64,000 nucleotides of DNA from positions 49,336,079 through 49,400,078 of the forward strand of contig CM049309.1 in the NCBI GenBank assembly GCA_026874595.1, read 5' to 3'. This DNA is from Sipunculus nudus (taxonomy: Eukaryota > Annelida > Sipuncula > Golfingiida > Sipunculidae). The position numbers were made by a program, and so were the translations under genes. Below the pieces are notes generated by a model. That model was not told the DNA's origin. It was given only the letters and a program-made list of their open reading frames with translations, and made no database searches. Positions 22,985 through 64,000 of this stretch are shown here, one piece after another. Position 1 is the stretch's first letter. Each line of letters begins with the position of its first letter.

Positions 22985-25860
22985 TGTCATCTATCTAAAA
23001 AATAAAACTGCACTTGTACAAGAGTTGTACCATTATATCTTACTACAATGTAACATCATCATTACAAGAATAGTTACACTATATCTACCTCAATGTAACA
23101 TCATCTATACAAGAGTGATACCACTGTATCTACCTACCATGTAACATCATCTATACAAAAGTGATACCACTTTATCTACCTACCATGTAACATCATCTAT
23201 ACAAGAGTGATACCACTGTATCTACCTACCATGTAACATCATCTATACAAGCATGACACCACTGTATCTAACTACCATGTCACATTATCTATACAAGAAT
23301 GGTACCACTGACTGTATCTAACTACCACATAACATCATCTATACAAGAGTGATACCACTGTATCTACCTACCATGTAACATCATCTATACTAGAGTGATA
23401 CTGGTCTATGTATGCCACAAAATATCATCTATACAAGAGTGATACAACTGTATCTACCTGCAACGTAACATCATCTATACAAGCGTGACACCACTGTATC
23501 TAACAACCACATAACATCATCTTTACAAGAGTGATACCACTGTATCTACCTACCATGTAACATCATCTATAAAACAGTGATACAACTGTATCTACCTACC
23601 ACCTAACATCATCTATACAAGAGTGATACCACTGTATCTACCTACCATGTAACATCATCTATACAAGAGAGATACCACTGTATCTAACAACCACATAACA
23701 TCATCTTTACAAGAGTGATACCACTGTATCTACCTACCATGTAACATCATCTATAAAACAGTGATACCACTGTATCTAACAACCACATAACATCATCTTT
23801 ACAGGAGTGATACCACTGTATCTACTTACCATGTAACATCATCTATAAAACAGTGATACCACTGTATCTACCTACCACCTAACATCATCTATATAAGAGT
23901 GATACCACTGTATCTAACTACCACATAAGATCATCTATACAAGAGTGATACCACTGTATCTACCTACCATGTAACATCATCTATACTAAAGTGATACTGC
24001 TCTATGTATGCCACAAAACATCATCTATACAAGAGTGATACCACTGTATCTACCTGCAACGTAACATCATCTATACAAGCGTGACACCACTGTATCTAAC
24101 TACCATGTAACATCATCTATACAAGAGTGATGCCACTGTATCTAACAACCACATAACATCATCTTTACAAGAGTGATACCACTGTATCTACCTACCATGT
24201 AACATCATCTATAAAACAGTGATACCACTGTATCTACCTACCACCTAACATCATCTATACAAGAGTGATACCAATGTATCTACTTACCATGTAACATCAT
24301 CTATACAAGAGTGATACCGCTATATCTACCTACCATGTAACATCATCTATACTACAGAGATACTGCTCTATATACATGCCACATAACATCATCTATACAA
24401 GAGTGATACCAGTGATATACATGCCACGTAACATCATCTACATAAACCCATAGCAACATCAATACAAGAGTGATACCACTGTATTTACCTATCATGTAAC
24501 ATCAACCATACATGAGTGATACTGCTGTATCTAACTGCAACGTAAAATCATCTATACAAGACTGATACCACTGTATCTAACTGCCATGTAAAATCATCTA
24601 TTCAAGAGTGATACCACTATATATACCTACCATGTAACATCATCAATACAAAAGTGATACCACTGTATCTACCTACCATGTGACATCATCTATACAAGAG
24701 GGATACCACTGTATCTACCTACCATATAACATCATCTATAAAACAGTGATACCACTGTATCTACCTAACACCTAACATCATCTATACAAGAGTGATACCA
24801 CTGTATCTACCTACCATGTAACATCATCTACATAAACCCATAACATCATCTATACAAGAGTGATACCGCTATATCTACCTACCATGTAACATCATCTATA
24901 CTAGAGTGATACTGCTCTATATACATGCCACATAACATCATCTATACAAGTGTGATACCACTGTATCTACCTGCCACGTAACATCATCTACATTTACCCA
25001 TAGCAACATCAATACAAGAGTGATACCGCTATATCTATCTACGATGTAATATCAACCATACAAGAGTGACACTGCTGTATCTAACTGCAATGTAAAATCA
25101 TCAATACAAGAGTGATACCACTGTATCTAACTGCCATGAAACACCATATACATAAAAACCATAGCAACATCTATACAAGACTGATACTACTGTATTTAAT
25201 TGCCATGTAAAATCATCTATTCAAGAGTGATACCACTATATATACCTACCATGTAACATCATCAATACAAGAGTGATACCACTGTATCTAACTGCCATGT
25301 AACACCATATACATAAAAAACCATAGCAACATCTATACAAGATTGATACTACTGTATCTAACTGCCATGTAAAATCATCTATTCAAGAGTGATACCACTA
25401 TATATACCTATCATGTAACATCATCAATACAAGAGTGAAACCACTGTATCTACCTACCATGTAACATCATCTGTACAAGAGCGATACCAATGTTTCTACC
25501 TACCATGTAACATCATCTATGAAACAGTGATACCACTGTATCTACCTACCAACTAACATCATCTATACAAGAGTGATACCAATGTATCTACCTACCATGT
25601 AACATCATCTATACAAGAGTGATACTGCTGTATCTAACTGCAATGTAAAATCATCAATACAAGAGTGATACCACTGTATCTAACTGCCATGAAACACCAT
25701 ATACATAAACCCATAGCAACATCTTTACAAGAGTGATACCGCTGTATCTAACTGCCATGTAAAATCATCTATTCAAGAGTGATACCACTATATCTACCTA
25801 CCATGTAACATCATCCATACAAGAGTGATACCACTGTATCTACCTATCAAGTAAATTCAT
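22985..25860. repeat. 46 bp minisatellite, ~60 copies
   Basis: The unit is about 46 bp: CATCATCTATACAAGAGTGA, then TACCACTGTATCTACCTACC, then ATGTAA (for example 23103 to 23149). Copies diverge at fixed places, with sub-variants 'TCTAACAACCACATAA', 'ATAAAACAGTGA' and 'ACATAAACCCATAGCAACAT' recurring. This suggests higher-order duplication of blocks of several units. Stops are frequent in all frames and there is no coding role. It lies upstream of the SGK3 start codon, probably in a 5' intron or intergenic DNA. Confidence 0.95.
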
Positions 25861-55100: not shown

Positions 55101-58100
55101 AGAATCTTGACTGTACTAAATTTTGTGACAATTTCAGCAAAAAGGAAGAGGGAAGTTGGTAACCATGGGGTCTGTCCACATGTTTAGTGATCAGTACTTG
55201 GACAAGGAGGAAAATGGCAAAATTCTTGTGAGTTGCTTAGTTACCAATATCAATATTACTTGTACAGAAAAAAATAGCAGAATTTTCACGTGTTTGTGTG
55301 GGAAATTAACTCAGTCATTAGACAAAATTTGCTTTCTGCATATAATTGATTTTATTTCTTGATGTAACTTGCCAAAATATTTCTTTCTTTTACTTTTATG
55401 GAATATGTGGTAACTGTACCCATTGTAACTTGTAAACATTTTCATCATTGATACACTCAGAGTATTTCATATCCTGTTGCCATTTTGACCTGTGACCAGT
55501 GAATCTCATTTATATGTATGGATCATTCTTATTCATTGTTTAGATAAAATGAATAAAGGTAGTGCAGGTATTTATGACAGTTATTATTGTGTAATCTCTC
55601 GTGTGCCTTACTGTAAGGTAAGTGTTAAGTTTGCTGTAAAATGTCAGGATTAGTCACACAAAGTTGGCTGAAAGAAAAATTTTCAAAGGCCCAGGTATTT
55701 CTTAGAAAGTATTTTTGGTTGGCTAAAAAATACCAAGATCAAACTAAAAGACAGAGCAAGATTTAAAATTATAGTTTCAAAAGTGTTATAAAAATACCAG
55801 CTGTTTAAGAAAGACTTGGCATCTTAATTGAATGATATAATCAGAACAGATATATTTCTACATATCACATCTGTATATTAAGACAAAAAAAATGTGAAAG
55901 CTAGATAATATATATGCAGAATAGTGTTTATATCTTTTTTTTACATTTTATTTTATTTTTATAACCTGATTTAATCTGAGAATTTTATATTTTTTGTTTC
56001 TCTGTGTCTGCAGGATGTGATATTAAATTTCTTGACCACAGATGAAGTCAGACTTAACCAGATTGATGCTGATGACCCAGAGGTATATATATATATATAT
56101 ATGTATATTTATGTGTGTGTGTGTGTGTACAATCCACTTCCCATTCAAATATAAACATTAGAATTACTGCACAAAATAACAACTTTCTCTGAGTATATAA
56201 TAACACTACACTTATAAAGCAAACAAGAGCTACCATCGACAGATTTATAAAGCAAAATACTGTTAGCTGATGCCTAACTGATTTATTATACTACCAGTAT
56301 TCATAAGGGTTTATCTACTGCTTTAAATGCACTTGTTATAAAAGTGTCCATATAATATTGGAAGGTATGTTTTCTTTAGCAATGTTGTATCTCTGAAACA
56401 CCAGCACAAACAATAATATCTGCAAACTGTTAATCATATAATGACTGAACTTTTATATATATGTTAAGGTATATGTCTACCTTGTGTTGATAATTTTTAT
56501 TATTTTGATTAGGAATAATGATAATACTGGTTATATTAATGGTAATATTGGTTCTGTTAATGGTTATTTTGGTACTATTAATGGGTTTTATGTGTACATG
56601 CAAAATATTTATGGTAATATTGTTACCATAAATGGTAATTTAGTACTATTAATGGTAATATTGGTACTTACGTGTGGATACATCCAGGTATCAGACTACA
56701 ACCAGCAGCCAGACACAGCTTTCCTGGCTGAACAGCTGAAGTCGTGTTTACAAGAGACAGATGAGGTGCCACGTGATGTCACGACACTGTTTGAGAGTTC
56801 CCTGTTCTCACTTGATACAAGCGTCGTACCAAAAGCTATTAAGTGAGTGTGTTGAAAATATAAAACACAATAAGACCTTCTCTGTAAAAGGATATCAATT
56901 CCTGTTTGCAGCTGTTTTATTTTAAAATATTTTTATGTGTACTGCCAATATCATCTTAAAATATTAAACCAAAATATAATTTATCCTGTATTTGTGGAAA
57001 TTTGGACTTTTATACTTTGTGTTTAAATCTGCATGAGTAAGGAACACATGCACACACTTTTTTTTAATAAACTAGACGTGAAACATGACTTACAGTCTCA
57101 CAATGGTTTAATCTTTATGCCTCTCATGTTTTAGGGCATATGAACAATTAGATGTGAAATATGAACTGCAGTCTCACCAGTGGTTTAATCTCTGTTACTG
57201 TTATGTTCCTGGGAATATGAACAGTTATATGTGAAACATGAACTACAGACTCACCAGTTGTTTAATCTGTATGCCTGTTATGTTTCAGGGCATATGAACA
57301 GTTAGATGTGAATCATGAACCACAGTCTAACCTGTTGTTTAATCTGTATGCCTGTTATGTTTCAGGGCATATGAACAGTTAGATGTGAAACATGAACCAG
57401 TCTAACCAGTGGTTTAATCTGTATGCCTGTTATGTTTCAGGGCATATGAACAGTTAGATGTGAAACATGAACCACAGTCTGACCAGTGGTTTAATCTGTA
57501 TGCCTGTTATGTTTCAGGGCATATGAACAGTTAGACATGATGCTTGAACCACAGTCTAACCAGTTGTTTAATCTGTATGCCTGTTATGTTTCAGGGCATA
57601 TGAACAGTTAGATGTGAAGCATGAACCACAGTCTAACCAGTGGTTTAATCTGTATGCCTGTTATGTTCCAGGGCATATGAACAGTTAGATGTGAAACATG
57701 AACCAGTCTAACCAGTGGTTTAATCTGTATGCCTGTTATGTTTCAGGGCATATGAACAGTTAGATGTGAAACATGAACCAGTCTAACCAGTGGTTTAATC
57801 TGTATGCCTGTTATGTTTCAGGGCATATGAACAGTTAGATGTGAAACATGAACCACAGTCTAACCAGTGGTTTAATCTGTATGCCTGTTATGTTTCAGGG
57901 CATATGAACAGTTAGACATGAAGCATGAACCACAGTCTAACCAGTTGTTTAATCTGTATGCCTGTTATGTTTGAGGGCATATGAACAGTTAGATGTGAAG
58001 TATGAACCACAGTCTAACCAGTGGTTTAATCTGTTTGCCTGTTATGTTCCAGGGCATATGAACAGTTAGATGTGAAACATGAACCAGTCTAACCAGTTGT

Positions 58101-61100
58101 TTAATCTGTATGCCTGTTATGTTTCAGGGCATATGAACAGTTAGATGTGAAGCATGAACCACAGTCTAACCAGTTGTTTAATCTGTATGCCTGTTATGTT
58201 TCAGGGCATATGAACAGTTAGATGTGAAGCATGAATCACAGTCTAACCAGTGGTTTAATCTGTATGCCTGTTATGTTCCAGGGCATATGAACAGTTAGAT
58301 GTTAAACATGAACCTCTCAGTCTCACCAGTTGTTTAATCTGTATGCCTGTTATGTTTCAGGGCATATGAACAGTTAGATGTGAAGCATGAACCACAGACT
58401 AACCAGTTGTTTAATCTGTATGCCTGTTATGTTTCAGGGCATATGAACAGTTAGATGTGAAAGATGAACCAGTCTAACCAGTGGTTTAATCTGTATGCCT
58501 GTTATGTTTCAGGGCATATGAACAGTTAGTTGTGAAGCATGAACCACAGTCTAACCAGTTGTTTAATCTGTATGCCTGTTATGTTCCAGGGCATATGAAC
58601 AGTTAGTTGTGAAGCATGAACCACAGTCTAACCAGTTGTTTAATCTGTATGCCTGTTATGTTTCAGAGCATATGAACAGTTAGATGTGAAGCAAGAACCA
58701 CAGTCTAACCAGTTGTTTAATCTGTATGCCTGTTATGTTCCAGGGCATATGAACAGTTAGATGTGAAGCATGAACCACAGTCTAACCAGTTGTTTAATCT
58801 GTATGCCTGTTATGTTTCAGAGCATATGAACAGTTAGTTGTGAAGCTTGAACCACAGTCTAACCAGTTGTTTAATCTGTATGCCTGTTATGTTCCAGGGC
58901 ATATGAACAGTTAGTTGTGAAGCATGAACCACAGTCTAACCAGTGGTTTAATCTGTATGCCTGTTATGTTTCAGAGCATATGAACAGTTAGATGTGAAGC
59001 ATGAACCACAGTCTAACCAGTTGTTTAATCTGTATGCCTGTTATGTTTCAGGGCATATGAACAGTTAGATGTGAAGCATGAACCACAGTCTAACCAGTTG
59101 TTTAATCTGTATGCCTGTTATGTTTCAGAGCATATGAACAGTTAGTTGTGAAGCATGAACCACAGTCTAACCAGTTGTTTAATCTGTATGCCTGTTATGT
59201 TCCAGGGCATATGAACAGTTAGTTGTGAAGCATGAACCACAGTCTAACCAGTTGTTTAATCTGTATGCCTGTTATGTTTCAGAGCATATGAACAGTTAGA
59301 TGTGAAGCAAGAACCACAGTCTAACCAGTTGTTTAATCTGTATGCCTGTTATGTTCCAGGGCATATGAACAGTTAGATGTGAAGCAAGAACTTCAGTCTC
59401 ACCAGTTGTTTAATCTGTATGCCTGTTATGTTTCAGGGCATATGAACAGTTAGACATGAAGCATGAACCACAGTCTAACCAGTGGTTTAATCTGTATGCC
59501 TGTTATGTTTCAGGGCATATGAACTGTTAGACATGAAGCATGAACCACAGTCTAACCAGTTGTTAATCTGTATACCTGTTATGTTTCAGAGCATATGAAC
59601 AGTTAGTCATGAAGCATGAACTACAGTCTCACCAGTTGTTTAATCTGTATGCCTGTTATGTTCCAGGGCATATGAACAGTAAGATGTGAAGCATGAACCA
59701 CAGTCTAACCAGTTGTTTAATCTGTATGCCTGTTATGTTCCAGGGCATATGAACAGTTAGATTTGAAGCATGAACTACAGACTCACCTGTTGTTTAATCT
59801 GTAAGCCTGTTATGTTTCAGGGCATATGAACAGTTAGATGTGAAGCATGAACCACAGTCTAACCAGTTGTTTAATCTGTATGCCTGTTATGTTTCAGGGC
59901 ATATGAACAGTTAGATGTGAAACATGAACCACAGTCTAACCAGTGGTTTAATCTGTATGCCTGTTATGTTTCAGGGCATATGAACAGTAAGACATGAAGC
60001 ATGAACCACAGTCTAACCAGTTGTTTAATCTGTATGCCTGTTATGTTTCAGGGCATATGAACAGTTAGATGTGAAGCATGAACCACAGTCTAACCAGTGG
60101 TTTAATCTGTATGCCTGTTATGTTCCAGGGCATATGAACAGTTAGATGTTAAACATGAACCTCTCAGTCTCACCAGTTGTTTAATCTGTATGCCTGTTAT
60201 GTTTCAGGGCATATGAACAGTTAGATGTGAAGCATGAACCACAGTCTAACCAGTTGTTTAATCTGTATGCCTGTTATGTTTCAGGGCATATGAACAGTTA
60301 GATGTGAAACATGAACCTCTCAGTCTCATCACACCACAGTTTGAAACTCCTCTCCCCCCACTGCAGCCAGCTGTAAGTATAACATATCTTCCTTATAATG
60401 ATTTATACTGTATTCTTTAGTCTGTTTCATGTAACCTCAAGGAAAACAAATACAATCACAAAGTTCTTATGGTCAATTACAGTTATAAAACTTTTGTAAA
60501 TGGTAACAAAATACAAATTCAGATACTTAATGTCTGTTAGATGTTCATTTTGCAATGATTGTTATTTTGTACATGTAAATAGGTGATGAGGATTTAAAGG
60601 GATACACAGATGTAATGGTCACCAAATAATTATAAGGGTTTCAAGAGGTGCCCTATAGTGATCACCTGATTTGTCCATCCATCAGTGATGCTTTCTTTCT
60701 AATACTTTATCTCCAATAGGATGCATGTGATTTTTCTCAAATTTATAGAGATGATTGGTATATATTGGGTTCAAGCTCTATTGCATTACACACCAGTATG
60801 AGTTACAGTATGGCTGCCAGAACAAAATTCTTTATTTTTTTTCGTGGGCAATATCTCAAAGAGAATATGTTTGGGCTTTCCCAGATTCTTAGAGTTGATT
60901 AATATCTATGAGGGCTCTAGCCCTATTGAATGACCGACCCACCCTATATCCAGTATTTCCTTGAGAGCACAATCAGTGAATTTCTTTTGAAGGCAGCTTC
61001 TCAAAGAGACTGATCTTTCCCAAATTTGCAAAGATGAATATTGTCCATAAGGGCTCAAGCCTGATCGAGTTACAGACCTGCCTATTATCCAGTATGGCTG

Positions 61101-62069
61101 TTAAAGCACAATCAGATGTGTGCGTCCAAATTTCAGACTCCTTTAAGCTTTTAAATTCCTTTTGCATGCATTATCTAAATAACCTTTGAGATATTGGTGT
61201 TGATTTTCTAAGATAGGTCCTTTTCAGATTATTTGTGTTAATAAATTTTAGACTAATCTTACATCCAATATGGCCACAGGGCTGCCATTTTGATGAACTG
61301 GTGATTGTAGGGCCCTACTGGAGGACCCTTTAAGTCCCAAACTTCTAGTTTCATCATACATGTATAGTCTCATGCAGTCATTAATATAGCTTCAGATTTT
61401 GAATGTAACATTAAGAAGTAAACTTGGTTGTATATACAGCAAGTTCTAAACAGTGGCAAAAGAGTAAAGCTGCTATGCAACCAACCTAATAGTCTTTTCT
61501 GATTGACTTATATGTGAAAATAAATATGTTTAACCAAGTAAATATGATATAAACACTGATAAAATTTAAAAAATGTTCTGTAGTGCAAATAATGAACTTT
61601 GAAAAGTCTCCATCAATTTGTCAATAAGAAAGTGACCATATTAGCCAATCAGTAGACTTCTCACATTTCAGGTGATAAAATGTTCATAGTCACAAAACAT
61701 TTCATTTGTCATCAACCATTTTGGATTTTGCAGATCAGTTTAAAAGAAAAATTCAAAATGCCAATTTATTTTTCTTTTTAAATGAGATCAGAGGTTAGCA
61801 GTTATCCACAAAATTAAAAAAGACTGGCCTGAGTCTGTATTTTATATGCATTGCATCAACAACAAGTCAACAACAAAATTCTTGTATGTTCATGGGCTTA
61901 TTAAATTTATCTTGTCTTATCTTATAACTGTGGATGACCTTGATTATTTCTTTTGTACAGGTATTCCCACCACAGTTCCGGGAGCTTCCCCCACCAGCGC
62001 TGGACCTGTTTGATCTTGATGAACAGTTCTCATCAGAGAAAGTCAGACTGGCACAGCTCACTAACAAAT
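44501..62069 (+). CDS. IFT52: intraflagellar transport protein 52 (IFT-B1 core), 12 of its coding exons, 3' end outside window
   Basis: Joined exons give 380 residues without a stop (human IFT52 has 437). The N-terminal GIFT domain is clear: TIVFNASKREIFTVNNGFKS, GGPREKFT, GEGGESKSNTNINFLLEEYG, then KYFHPKEVLVSNGVLNREIS, YPYGATLSVMRPAVSVLSTG, GSVHMFSDQYLDKEENGKI and LNQIDADDPEVSDY. After these come CLQETDEVPRDVTTLF and FPPQFRELPPPALDLFDLDE. Known role: IFT52 links IFT88, IFT70 and IFT46 in the IFT-B core that carries cargo along cilia. The C-terminal IFT46-binding part must lie past 64000. All exon phases match. The first ATG (AAC ATG G, strong Kozak) adds seven residues before the Met that aligns with the human start. 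Confidence 0.97.
45051..45069 (+). repeat. SINE 3'-end-like piece
   Basis: GCATTCTATAGTGGCTACC matches the end of the tRNA-SINE at 39511-39735 with two differences. The head of a second element may lie upstream, but no A/B boxes were found. Confidence 0.4.
45380..45492. repeat. two adjacent inverted repeats
   Basis: TTATTGATTGTCA (45380-45392) pairs perfectly with TGACAATCAATAA (45404-45416) across an 11-base loop. About 35 bases on, AATTTTTATTTTATTGAATT (45451-45470) pairs with AATTCAATAAAAATT (45478-45492), which lacks five bases. Both lie in IFT52 intron 1. They may be remnants of TIR elements or stem-loop DNA. Confidence 0.75.
45613..46100. mobile_element. TIR element in IFT52 intron 1
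   Basis: The left end ATCCCACCAAGGGGCGACCA and the right end (reverse-complemented) GTCCCACCAAGGGGTCCCCA are inverted repeats of about 24 bp. The 490 bp interior has only short open frames without recognisable domain. A (TA)n tract directly follows the right end. Confidence 0.65.
46105..46160. repeat. (TA)n microsatellite
   Basis: About 50 bases of nearly pure TA, then an ATT/AATAAT tract to about 46180. It is 145 bases before IFT52 exon 2. Confidence 0.95.
46305..46429 (+). CDS. IFT52: IFT52 exon 2
   Basis: 125 nt after CTTTTTCAG. It encodes SMDDRSQKNTIVFNASKREI then FTVNNGFKSLNRRLRNTWKI L (human 'TILFNAYKKEIFTTNNGYKS'). Donor AAG|GTTGGT, leaving two bases of the next Ser codon. Confidence 0.97.
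46430..47517. other. first part of IFT52 intron 2, AT-rich
   Basis: No exon is seen. It contains long A/T runs and TTGAGAAATATC-type words that look like an old dispersed repeat without defined ends. Confidence 0.4.
47518..50690. mobile_element. large bivalve-type AGCTCAGCTGA repeat, ~3.2 kb, in IFT52 intron 2
   Basis: The left end TTTTAGCTCAGCTGACT faces AAGTCATCTGAGCT (a hairpin) followed by a GTCC/GTCT run (47577-47630). The right end is CAGCTGAGCGCCGTGACCCA then GGGTCCCTTGTT (50650-50685). The inside holds two diverged direct copies of a ~500 bp block (47640-48130 and 48340-48840, both with ATTAGGACTTTGTTCCT-type wording) and part of a third near 50160-50280. The 37160-37810 copy is inverted. 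No coding frame is recognised. Confidence 0.65.
50691..52091. other. last part of IFT52 intron 2
   Basis: No exon is seen. A small symmetric stretch around 51960-52070 repeats AAACCTGCC / GGTTTTAGGC / CCTGCCTAAAAC words in both orientations and looks like a short repeat remnant. Confidence 0.4.
52092..52179 (+). CDS. IFT52: IFT52 exon 3
   Basis: 88 nt. With two bases from exon 2 it encodes SNKEEITEERLAVARIFIFG then GPREKFTSQE (human 'LKDEITSEKL...AGPREKFTAAE'). Acceptor TTTTTCAG, donor GAG|GTATTA. Phase 0 out. Confidence 0.97.
52445..52574 (+). CDS. IFT52: IFT52 exon 4
   Basis: 130 nt encoding FEAIKKYIENGGSVLVMLGE then GGESKSNTNINFLLEEYGVM VNN, nearly identical to human around 'MLGEGGES...NINFLLEEYGIMVNND'. 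Donor AATG|GTAAGT, phase 1 out. Confidence 0.98.
53271..53346 (+). CDS. IFT52: IFT52 exon 5
   Basis: 76 nt encoding DNVVRTHFYKYFHPKEVLVS then NGVLN and two bases of Arg (human 'KYFHPKEALVSSGVLNR'). Acceptor TATTTTCAG, donor CAG|GTAAGT. Confidence 0.98.
53692..53757 (+). CDS. IFT52: IFT52 exon 6
   Basis: 66 nt encoding REISRAAGKHIPGLGEEDQN NA (human 'REISRAAGKAVPGIIDEESSGNNA'). Acceptor TATATTACAG, donor CTCA|GTGAGT, phase 2 out. Confidence 0.97.
53979..54110. repeat. piece of MITE family E
   Basis: TACAGTAAAATCTTGTTGTG then AAAGTCGAAGGGACTT match the ends of the 19105-19288 element (right end reverse-complemented). It lies in IFT52 intron 6. Confidence 0.5.
54295..54421 (+). CDS. IFT52: IFT52 exon 7
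   Basis: 127 nt encoding QALTFLYPYGATLSVMRPAV then SVLSTGSVSFPLNRPVCALY SGK (human 'QALTFVYPFGATLSVMKPAVAVLSTGS'). Acceptor GTTTCACAG, donor AAG|GTAAGT, phase 0 out. Confidence 0.98.
55138..55227 (+). CDS. IFT52: IFT52 exon 8
   Basis: 30 codons: QKGRGKLVTMGSVHMFSDQY then LDKEENGKIL (human 'GGKLAVLGSCHMFSDQYLDKEENSKI'). Acceptor ACAATTTCAG, donor CTT|GTGAGT. The frame remains open past the donor into the intron but loses similarity there. Confidence 0.98.
56014..56082 (+). CDS. IFT52: IFT52 exon 9
   Basis: 23 codons: DVILNFLTTDEVRLNQIDAD then DPE (human 'DVVFQWLTTGDIHLNQIDAEDPE'). Acceptor TGTCTGCAG. The donor GAG|GTATAT is the first dinucleotide of a (TA)n(TG)n microsatellite. Confidence 0.97.
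56083..56128. repeat. IFT52: (TA)n(TG)n microsatellite at the exon 9 donor
   Basis: GTATATATATATATATATAT followed by GTATATTTA and (TG)9. The 5' splice site GT of intron 9 is part of it. Confidence 0.9.
56515..56672. repeat. ATTGGTACTATTAATGG-type degenerate tandem repeat
   Basis: Successive imperfect copies of TTAATGGTAATATTGGTACT, about 21-24 bases each, occupy the 3' part of IFT52 intron 9, ending a few bases before the exon 10 acceptor. The open frame upstream of exon 10 is this repeat read through. Confidence 0.8.
56688..56842 (+). CDS. IFT52: IFT52 exon 10
   Basis: 155 nt: VSDYNQQPDTAFLAEQLKSC then LQETDEVPRDVTTLFESSLF and SLDTSVVPKAI plus AA of the next Lys (human 'ECLQESDEIPRDFTTLFDLS'). 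The acceptor ATACATCCAG has a weak pyrimidine tract. Donor AA|GTGAGT, phase 2 out. Confidence 0.96.
57126..60284 (+). repeat. IFT52: ~77 bp tandem array of exon 11's intron-exon junction, ~41 copies
   Basis: The unit reads GGCATATGAACAGTTAGATG, TGAAACATGAACCACAGTCT, AACCAGTGGTTTAATCTGTA, TGCCTGTTATGTTTCAG, that is 77 bp (some copies 75 or 79). The first ~33 bases equal the start of exon 11, and two copies (near 58310 and 60148) match further (CCTCTCAGTCTCA). The rest is the intron end with CTAAC (branch-like, 35 nt before the AG), a short pyrimidine tract and TTTCAG or TTCCAG. I count starts at 57135, 57211, 57289, 57366 and so on to 60209, then the true exon at 60285. One copy (57976) has TTTGAG in place of the AG acceptor. 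Confidence 0.97.
60285..60372 (+). CDS. IFT52: IFT52 exon 11 (last member of the repeat array)
   Basis: 88 nt. With AA from exon 10 it encodes KAYEQLDVKHEPLSLITPQF then ETPLPPLQPA (human 'EAHEQLNVKHEPLQLIQPQFETPLPTLQPA'). Only this copy continues into the full exon and reaches a donor, GCT|GTAAGT. Acceptor TTATGTTTCAG. If an upstream array acceptor were used, the frame would read through to a TAG in the next unit (AAC AGT TAG). Confidence 0.96.
60600..61330. repeat. diverged dispersed repeat with ~130-160 bp internal periodicity, IFT52 intron 11
   Basis: Three loosely similar blocks carry 'TTTGCAAAGATGAATATTG / TTATAGAGATGATTGGTA / TCTTAGAGTTGATTAATA', 'GGGCTCAAGCCTGAT' and 'CCAGTATGGCTG' near 60745, 60890 and 61030. 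This is probably an old repeat remnant, with no coding content. Confidence 0.5.
61961..62069 (+). CDS. IFT52: IFT52 exon 12
   Basis: 109 nt: VFPPQFRELPPPALDLFDLD then EQFSSEKVRLAQLTNK plus one base of Cys (human 'VFPPSFRELPPPPLELFDLDETFSSEKARLAQITNKC'). Acceptor TTTTGTACAG, donor AAAT|GTAAGT. The next exon is not in the window: no match to 'EEDLEFYVRKCGDILGV' is visible before 64000. Confidence 0.97.
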
Positions 62070-62186
62070 GTAAGTGAATTTGTGGCTCCTAAACAATCAC
62101 TGTGCAGTGTCATATGTTCTATTGCCACTTACAAACTATCACTCAAGTTAAATATTGAAAGGGGAAGAACTGTAATTATGATTGTT

Positions 62187-62454: not shown

Positions 62455-64000
62455 CAGCTGACTGAAAGTCATCTGAGCTATAGCGATCACTCTTTGTCCG
62501 TCGTCCGTCTGTCTGTCTGTCTGTCTGTCCGTTAACCAGGCACAAATCGTAACCACTGGACCTGGAATCTTCTAACTTGACATCCAGGGAGTACCATGAA
62601 AAATCTCCTTGGAAACCTGAAATTAGGTCTCTGTTACCCATAACCTCTGAGCTATGGGGCTCCGAAGTACCCCCCAGAAAAATGGAAAATTTGATACAAA
62701 AGCTCAAGTATCTGAACAACTATTGCATTGATCACCATGATTCTGTGCATGGATATTGATCATGGAATGTTTCATCAGTTTCTGCAGTCTGGTGGCGCCA
62801 CCTATATTTTTTCGATTTTTACGAATTTTTTTCTTTATTTTTGAGACCTCTTGAGATGTGGTCATCTGTTAACAGGGCACAAATTGTAATGACTGGACCT
62901 AGAATCTTCTCTCTTGAAATTCCGGGAGGCCCATGAAAAGTCTCTTTGGAATCTTGAAATTAAGTCTCTGTTACCCATAACCTCTGAGCTATGGGGCTCC
63001 GAAATACCCCCCGGAATAATGGAAAATTTGATACAAAAGCTCAAGTATCTGAACAATTATTATATTGATCACCATGATTCTTTGCATGGATATTGATCAT
63101 GAAATGTTTCATCAGTTTCTGCATTCTGGTGGCGCCACCTGTATTTTTTAGCTCAGCTGACTGTAAGTCATCTGAGCTATAGGGATCACCTTTTGTCCGT
63201 CGTCCGTCCGGGCGTCTGTCCGTTAACAGGGCACAAATCGTAACCGCTAGAACTGGAATCTTCTTACATGACATCCTGGGAGGTCTATGGAAATTCTCCT
63301 TGTAAACCTGAAATTAGGTCACTGTGACCTATATTCTTTGAGCTATGGGGTTCCAAAGTACCCCCCAGAATAATGGAAAATTTGATACAAAAGCTCAAGT
63401 ATCTAAACAACTAATGCATTGATCATCATGATTTTTTGCATGGATATTGATCATGGAGTGTTTCATCAGTTTCTGCAGACTGGTGGCGCCACCTGTATTT
63501 TTTCGATTTTTACCAATATTTTTCTCTATTTTTGAGACCTCTTAAGATGCGGCCATCTGTTAACAGGGCACAAATCGTAACGACTACACCTAGAATCTTC
63601 TCTCTTGACATGCAGAGAGGCCCATAAAAAGTCTCTTTGGAAACCTGAAATTAGGTCTCTATTACCCATAACCTTTGAGCTATGGGGCTCCGAAGTACCC
63701 CCCAGAATAATGGAAAATTTGATACAAAAGCTCAAGTATCTAAACAACTATTGCAGTGATCACCATGATTCTTTGCATGGATATTGATCATGGAATATGT
63801 CATCAGTTTCTGCAGTATGGTGGCGCCACCTGTATTTTTTTTATTTTTACGAATTTTTTTCTCTATTTTTGAGACCTCATAAGATGTGGTCATCTGTTAA
63901 CATGGCACAAATTGTAACAACTGGACCTAGAATCTTCTCTCTTGACATGCTGAGAGGCCCATGAAAAGTCTCCTTAAAAACTTGAAATTAGGTCTCTGTT
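62455..64000. repeat. ~340 bp tandem array of AGCTCAGCTGA-family sequence, runs off the window
   Basis: GAGCTATGGGGCTCCGAAGT and GTTTCATCAGTTTCTGCAG, TGGTGGCGCCACCTGTATTT recur with GAGCT at 62649, 62986, 63340 and 63677, giving a unit of about 337-354 bp. Two units begin with the TTTTAGCTCAGCTGACT...AAGTCATCTGAGCT hairpin and (GTCT)n (62455 and 63147). The similar-looking 60-140-codon open frames on both strands (M-F-R-Y-L-S-F... and the mirrored plus-strand set) are this repeat and not genes. The array lies in IFT52 intron 12. Confidence 0.9.

Follow-up and report, generated by a model that had tools for sequence, protein, structure and literature searches.

A tandem array of 41 decoy 3′ splice sites in front of an IFT52 exon has the features of a mirage minisatellite

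A 64-kb window (the whole stretch of DNA analyzed, taken from an assembly of 1.43 Gb in 153 contigs) carries the cilium gene IFT52, in which one intron ends in a long tandem array of decoy acceptor sites leading directly into an authentic exon. All features of this locus lie on the plus strand, and coordinates are those of the window. Eleven IFT52 coding exons were located by tblastn with a human IFT52 query. The array-bearing exon is the tenth of these; the first-pass annotation of this DNA had called it exon 11, a number that fits if a further 5′ exon exists. The same annotation had assigned the exon to IFT52, and this was confirmed by the peptide of the joined exons, which matched Pfam IFT52_central (E = 2.9e-34) and an Osm-6-like protein in PDB. 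The exon preceding the array (56688–56842, ending ...GCT ATT AA/GTGAGT, the slash marking the splice junction) was placed by tblastn, the PDB match and its splice sites. The true exon (60285–60372; 88 nt, AYEQLDVKHEPLSLITPQFETPLPPLQPA) was placed by Pfam, the PDB match, tblastn and its reading frame. It is preceded by the true acceptor AG (60283–60284, from unit alignment and reading frame) and followed by the true donor GCT/GTAAGT (60373–60378), scored with a consensus matrix. The following exon (VFPPQFRELPPPALDLFDLDEQFSSEKVRLAQLTNKC, 61961–62071, end approximate) was placed by tblastn. An assembly-wide search with IFT52_central returned only two exons, both in the window, a missing match being no proof of absence. 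On this result, the idea of a further IFT52 copy, be it a retrocopy or another haplotype, in which a different array length or the spliced junction would be visible, was dropped.

The array was the top-scoring of the 34 rows that Tandem Repeats Finder (TRF) reported in the window (57073–60317; period 77, 42.2 copies, 93% matches; score 5481, runner-up 1898). Counting anchored on the exon start gave 42 units, namely 41 decoys (u1–u41; 57135–60284, mostly 77 bp and ending in AG) and the true exon as the final copy, in agreement with the approximately 41 repeats of a 77-bp intron-end and exon unit noted at first pass. Each decoy unit consists of the first 40–44 nt of the IFT52 exon followed by approximately 35 nt of intron end, with a length of 77 bp in 31 units, 75 bp in five, 79 bp in two, 76 bp in two and 78 bp in one. 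The extent proposed earlier, 57126–60372, held at the exon end, whereas the array begins approximately 50 bp before the proposed start. At this 5′ edge, a diverged partial copy (57073–57134) aligned with a score of 71 against a shuffle maximum of 34, and none of 300 shuffles reached 71. Three stretches upstream of 57073 gave scores that were reached by 23, 91 and 229 of 300 shuffles, and no significant older copy was found in them. When the last unit and the exon were used together as a query against the whole assembly, at least 41 matches were returned, every one inside this array; match counts in this search are lower bounds, as very common words were skipped. The intron holding the array is 3442 nt long (56843–60284), and its array-free length would be approximately 0.25–0.3 kb.

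The exon-derived part of the unit encodes AYEQLDVKHEPLSL, which is close to human IFT52, and its conservation as protein indicates that the repeats descend from the exon. The two 79-bp units, u16 and u40, retain the exon's CCTCTCAGTC, where the other 39 of the 41 units lack at least 2 nt, and in-frame TAA codons (exon frame) are present in u34 and u38. The decoys are non-coding. Core units differed among themselves by means of 4.0–5.0 at lags 1–17, with an average of 4.8 between neighbors, and the mean differences from the core were greatest at the 5′ edge, at 14.2 for u1 and 8.6 for u2. Only the 5′ edge is free to diverge, the 3′ edge being the exon itself. Units u15–u17 and u39–u41 showed 2 differences, and an exact 257-bp repeat is found at 58514 and 59130, a pattern pointing to the copying of units in blocks.

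Tandem arrays are generally prone to misassembly, and the copy number might have been inflated or invented during assembly. This explanation is hard to square with the 30 distinct sequences among the 41 units and the two unlike edge copies, with the position of the array in a 97.5-Mb contig and with the like arrays of different sequence at other loci described below. The array length of 3.2 kb is also below that of a usual long read. An assembly artefact is regarded as highly improbable.

The AG was present at the homologous position in 40 of the 41 decoys, u2 (57209–57210) being the sole decoy to have lost it. CAG was found in 38, with TAG in u1 and GAG in u12, which bears out the earlier remark that nearly every copy keeps an intact CAG. 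The true acceptor region recurs without a mismatch in u15 for 137 nt (113 nt on the upstream side and 24 nt on the downstream side) and in u37 for 93 nt upstream plus 33 nt downstream, indicating that the acceptor, the pyrimidine tract and the branch region hold nothing that sets the real site apart from these decoys. The mark of the real site must lie in its position, or in the downstream exon body and donor. When the preceding exon was joined to each decoy acceptor and read on through the true donor into the following exon, a stop was encountered in all 41 cases (u2 being included despite its lost AG), 71–3152 nt before the true donor, and only the true acceptor continued the reading of IFT52. 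A stop from any earlier acceptor had been claimed at first pass and was recovered here; the triplet string named for it, AAC AGT TAG, is the stop for only 24 of the 41, the other 17 stopping elsewhere. All 41 decoy products would be targets of nonsense-mediated decay (NMD) by its 50–55 nt rule.

The intact acceptors and the premature stop from every one of the 41 decoys would both suit a functional brake, in which some transcripts splice into the array, hit a stop and decay, so that array length tunes the IFT52 level. Two donor-like sites in the array, both ACA/GTAAGA (59679–59684 in u34 and 59987–59992 in u38), could in addition pair with the u33 and u37 acceptors to form cryptic exons of 89 nt. 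A brake is disfavored by the distribution of single-copy changes in the 39 core decoys, which was alike on the acceptor side and in the rest of the unit: 8 changes fell in 45 exon-side columns (alignment columns 2–48) and 5 in 32 intron-side columns (alignment columns 49–80; Fisher p = 1.0). In this small and weak test with few changes, no sign of selection to preserve or erase decoy acceptors was seen, and selection keeping the acceptors was dropped as a candidate. The like arrays at motor-protein genes and at donors (see below) further argue for a general by-product. A brake is thus considered unlikely, and no sign of a decoy function was found.

The first-pass annotation had proposed that the real site is chosen since it alone precedes a donor, which proved incomplete. 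A transcript spliced into u41 (60208–60284), the decoy closest to the true exon, and from there to the true donor would contain an exon of 165 nt with its stop 71 nt before the donor; for u40 and u39 the exon would be 244 and 321 nt long, respectively. All three lengths are normal for exons and acceptable under exon definition, so a downstream donor is not enough to rule these decoys out and a further rule is needed, namely that the acceptor nearest the donor is also preferred. The array contains 333 GTs; those of the donor-like sites in u34 and u38 ranked highest, at 1.5, and all others scored at most 0.3, compared with 2.0 for the true donor. No donor of its own for each unit, as in a mutually exclusive exon cluster, was found among these GTs on the consensus matrix. 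Alternatively, the 77-bp units might act as very small cassette exons, each 57 nt long and in frame, running from the acceptor to TCT/GTATGC, which would yield repeat-bearing IFT52 isoforms; TCT/GTATGC occurs 37 times in the array and 57 nt is a multiple of three. Such exons are very improbable and were dropped, given a weak donor (score −3.1 versus 2.0 for the true donor, on the same matrix) and broken frames: 10 of the 41 units are not 77 bp long, and u34 and u38 carry the in-frame TAA. In addition, an intron of only 20 nt would be left between neighboring units. In recursive splicing, a ratchet site consists of an acceptor followed directly by a donor (AG/GT). The 41 decoy units start with GG in 35 cases, AG in six and GT in none, and ratchet sites were rejected, no AG/GT being present at any unit start.

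We consider it very likely that the array is a neutral "mirage" minisatellite derived from a duplication of the splice junction, tolerated through exon-proximal site choice and decay of mistakes. A tandem duplication would have taken in the intron end and approximately 44 nt at the start of the IFT52 exon, after which rounds of unequal exchange or slippage would have multiplied and homogenized the copies on the intron side. Selection at the protein level, visible in the conserved exon, would presumably keep the true exon as the outermost copy. Exon definition by the spliceosome would then pair the true donor with its nearest acceptor, delimiting the 88-nt exon, so that the exon-proximal copy wins, and any use of a decoy would lead to the premature stops read above in an NMD-prone context. 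IFT52 is probably spliced regularly despite the array, as its conserved exon suggests, with occasional use of the last decoys predicted. PMC9225289 proposes that exon definition favors the site nearest across the exon, and reports that among identical competing donors in exon-defined minigenes the exon-proximal one was used exclusively.

Several points weigh against this explanation. The minigene test in PMC9225289 used donors rather than acceptors, and the same paper reports that human competing acceptors lean towards the upstream site, a lean which exon definition significantly reduces but does not abolish; this speaks against a clean choice in IFT52. Distances from the upstream donor are 292 nt for u1 and 446 nt for u3, lengths that fall inside the size range of the other IFT52 introns, so a rule of proximity across the intron would favor the first decoys. 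Exon size does not exclude the last decoys, as noted above, and the donor-like sites of u34 and u38 are a further difficulty.

Junction arrays at other exons of the genome were surveyed in a sample from three conserved families only, taken from Pfam matches to the myosin head (40 of 75 listed), kinesin (60 of 74) and dynein DHC_N2 (60 of 66). In total, 166 motor-protein exon loci were run through TRF. Six 3-kb loci (L011–L016), over whose exons TRF flagged no array, were left out, and the sample comprised 160 exon matches with approximately 380–500 bp flanks, in 69 clusters of neighboring matches taken as genes. Arrays spanning a junction, called by TRF and reading by eye, were present at eight of the 160 matches (95% interval, 2.2–9.6%), each in a different cluster. 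Eight further arrays at or near an exon edge (L065, L073, L074, L081, L097, L134, L135 and L143) were judged by eye to be without a junction and were not counted. Donors accounted for five of the eight junction arrays and acceptors for three, at myosin, kinesin and dynein exons. On the donor side, L036 has a 36-bp unit in at least 14.6 copies within the piece, with GGTCAGT 15 times; L044 has a 30-bp unit in at least 15.1 copies, with 16 junction-like places, of which 12 show CAGGTRA and one is inside the exon; L046 has 1.9 copies of 83 bp and L129 has 2.9 copies of 92 bp; and in L169 (37 bp, 8.7 copies) the full AACAGGGTAAG is kept at three of eight places, most copies having lost part of the site. 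On the acceptor side are L102 (60 bp, 4.2 copies), L106 (72 bp, at least 5.9 copies) and L120 (58–59 bp, with two arrays side by side, of 4.6 and 2.2 copies). Copy numbers for L036, L044 and L106 are lower bounds, as these arrays reach, or almost reach, the edge of the excised piece. No array met has more copies than that of IFT52, although several others run off their pieces.

Array coverage in the 160 matches was 3.5–5.4% at intron positions 21–380 nt from the match edge, 3% within 20 nt of the edge and 0.3–0.9% at 21–60 nt inside the exon, with 30 of 13,857 positions covered deeper in the exon; edges in this count are those of the profile matches and not confirmed splice sites, and some pieces overlap, so that a few positions were counted twice. 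No excess of arrays at junctions was seen in this coverage. It seems that arrays arise regardless of splice sites, are purged mainly from exon interiors and survive at junctions since splicing copes with them. More tentatively, it is possible that junction arrays are an ongoing, genome-wide feature of this non-lancelet lineage, affecting several percent of exons and, should the sample be representative, thousands of genes. They might be tolerated by strict exon-proximal splicing and continually give rise to cryptic exons, longer introns and possibly new introns, and their length might alter transcript output.

Work on site choice by the spliceosome often relies on minigenes in which two sites compete; IFT52 offers approximately 40 near-identical acceptors in a single gene. 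Junction arrays elsewhere in the genome, at donors as well as acceptors, extend this natural test of proximity across the exon versus proximity across the intron. If the sampled frequency holds, the genome would also provide a large natural test, outside lancelets, of the idea that junction duplications seed introns, as put forward in excerpts of PMC3087553.

Some observations were made alongside this work. The window overall is rich in minisatellites: a large array of a 46-bp unit occupies 23017–25860 (57.9 copies to 25700, with longer-period sub-arrays), and a 337-bp tandem repeat of 2.3 copies at 63222–63997 extends to the window end, past the last IFT52 exon found. In a muscle-type myosin gene (G000:C2:44848559-44854198, minus strand), several neighboring matches cover one part of the head (profile approximately 90–153 in most), and this cluster looks like a set of alternative exons. 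A COX1 search aimed at a mitochondrial contig returned ten matches with long stop-free frames of bacterial type on small contigs, nine with frames of 577–578 aa being on eight contigs (C60, C61, C62, C66, C72, C74, C75 and C89, three of which supplied L005–L007), and one short fragment on C5. The 112-kb contig C123 (L010) carries a stretch of genes resembling a bacterial cbb3-type oxidase operon. These small contigs, C123 included, look like bacterial genomes, apparently of several related strains, co-assembled with the animal and perhaps symbionts.

The host of the IFT52 array probably lies outside lancelets and is likely to be a mollusc or a near relative. Innexins match the assembly 22 times, 15 of these matches scoring at least 264 bits, and richness in innexins is a protostome trait. 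For one exon, the best matches among solved myosins were 3i5f and 2ec6, the squid and scallop myosins, only 1–3 bits above the vertebrate ones. Mollusc haemocyanin, tried as a host marker, gave no match, but it gave none in the control genomes either and is uninformative.

Repeats that reach across splice junctions have been described in human genes, and the comparisons that follow draw on excerpts of the papers cited. The human CBS insertion 844ins68 is a one-copy version in which the distal site is used (PMC2630376; the text there says "donor", and the title of Romano 2002 cited in it says 3′ splice site); it differs from IFT52 in being a single extra copy, a human polymorphism and no array. 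The 31-bp CBS repeat c.1444_1467+7, with 16–21 copies (PMC2630376), is like IFT52 in that its unit, by the published coordinates, reaches from exon into intron, and differs in being human and on the donor side with a shorter unit. Internal tandem repeats at exon–intron boundaries of human segmental duplications, on average 30-bp units in four copies, have been linked with novel introns and alternative transcripts (PMC2812944) and resemble the IFT52 array as minisatellites that alter exon–intron boundaries.

The closest counterparts are the mirage minisatellites of lancelets, described in Adh3 and the globins BflGb6 and BflGb9 (PMC3087553) and in troponin C and PGBD5 (PMC3902484). Regular splicing is apparently undisturbed in these genes (PMC3087553, PMC3902484), and mirages are proposed as a source of new introns (PMC3087553). 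No mirage outside lancelets, and none this large, was found in a limited search of the literature for mirages and junction minisatellites, which did show the human exon-boundary repeats and in which absence is not proven, and none of the matches listed for tandem repeats in introns names IFT52. The lancelet arrays have few units, BflGb6 having 6 and 3 in two haplotypes (PMC3087553) and PGBD5 a triplication of 108 bp (PMC3902484), compared with the 41 decoys of IFT52. Their splicing was checked by RT-PCR. With these published cases and the eight of 160 sampled exons, the claim made at first pass that expansion of a splice-junction unit is itself unusual gave way; its extent, approximately 41 copies, does exceed any described case found. 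In both systems the unit spans the intron–exon boundary, many copies carry the splice dinucleotide, the authentic exon stands at one end and the core is homogenized except at the cluster boundaries. In IFT52 these traits appear as 42 boundary-spanning units, AG in 40 of 41 decoys and a homogenized core with a diverged 5′ edge, and by them the array would be classed as a mirage minisatellite. Lancelet mirages, as in this genome, occur in both acceptor-side and donor-side forms. The IFT52 array is an extreme case, new in its size and probable host group, and a further new finding is the presence of like arrays at approximately 1 in 20 sampled exons.

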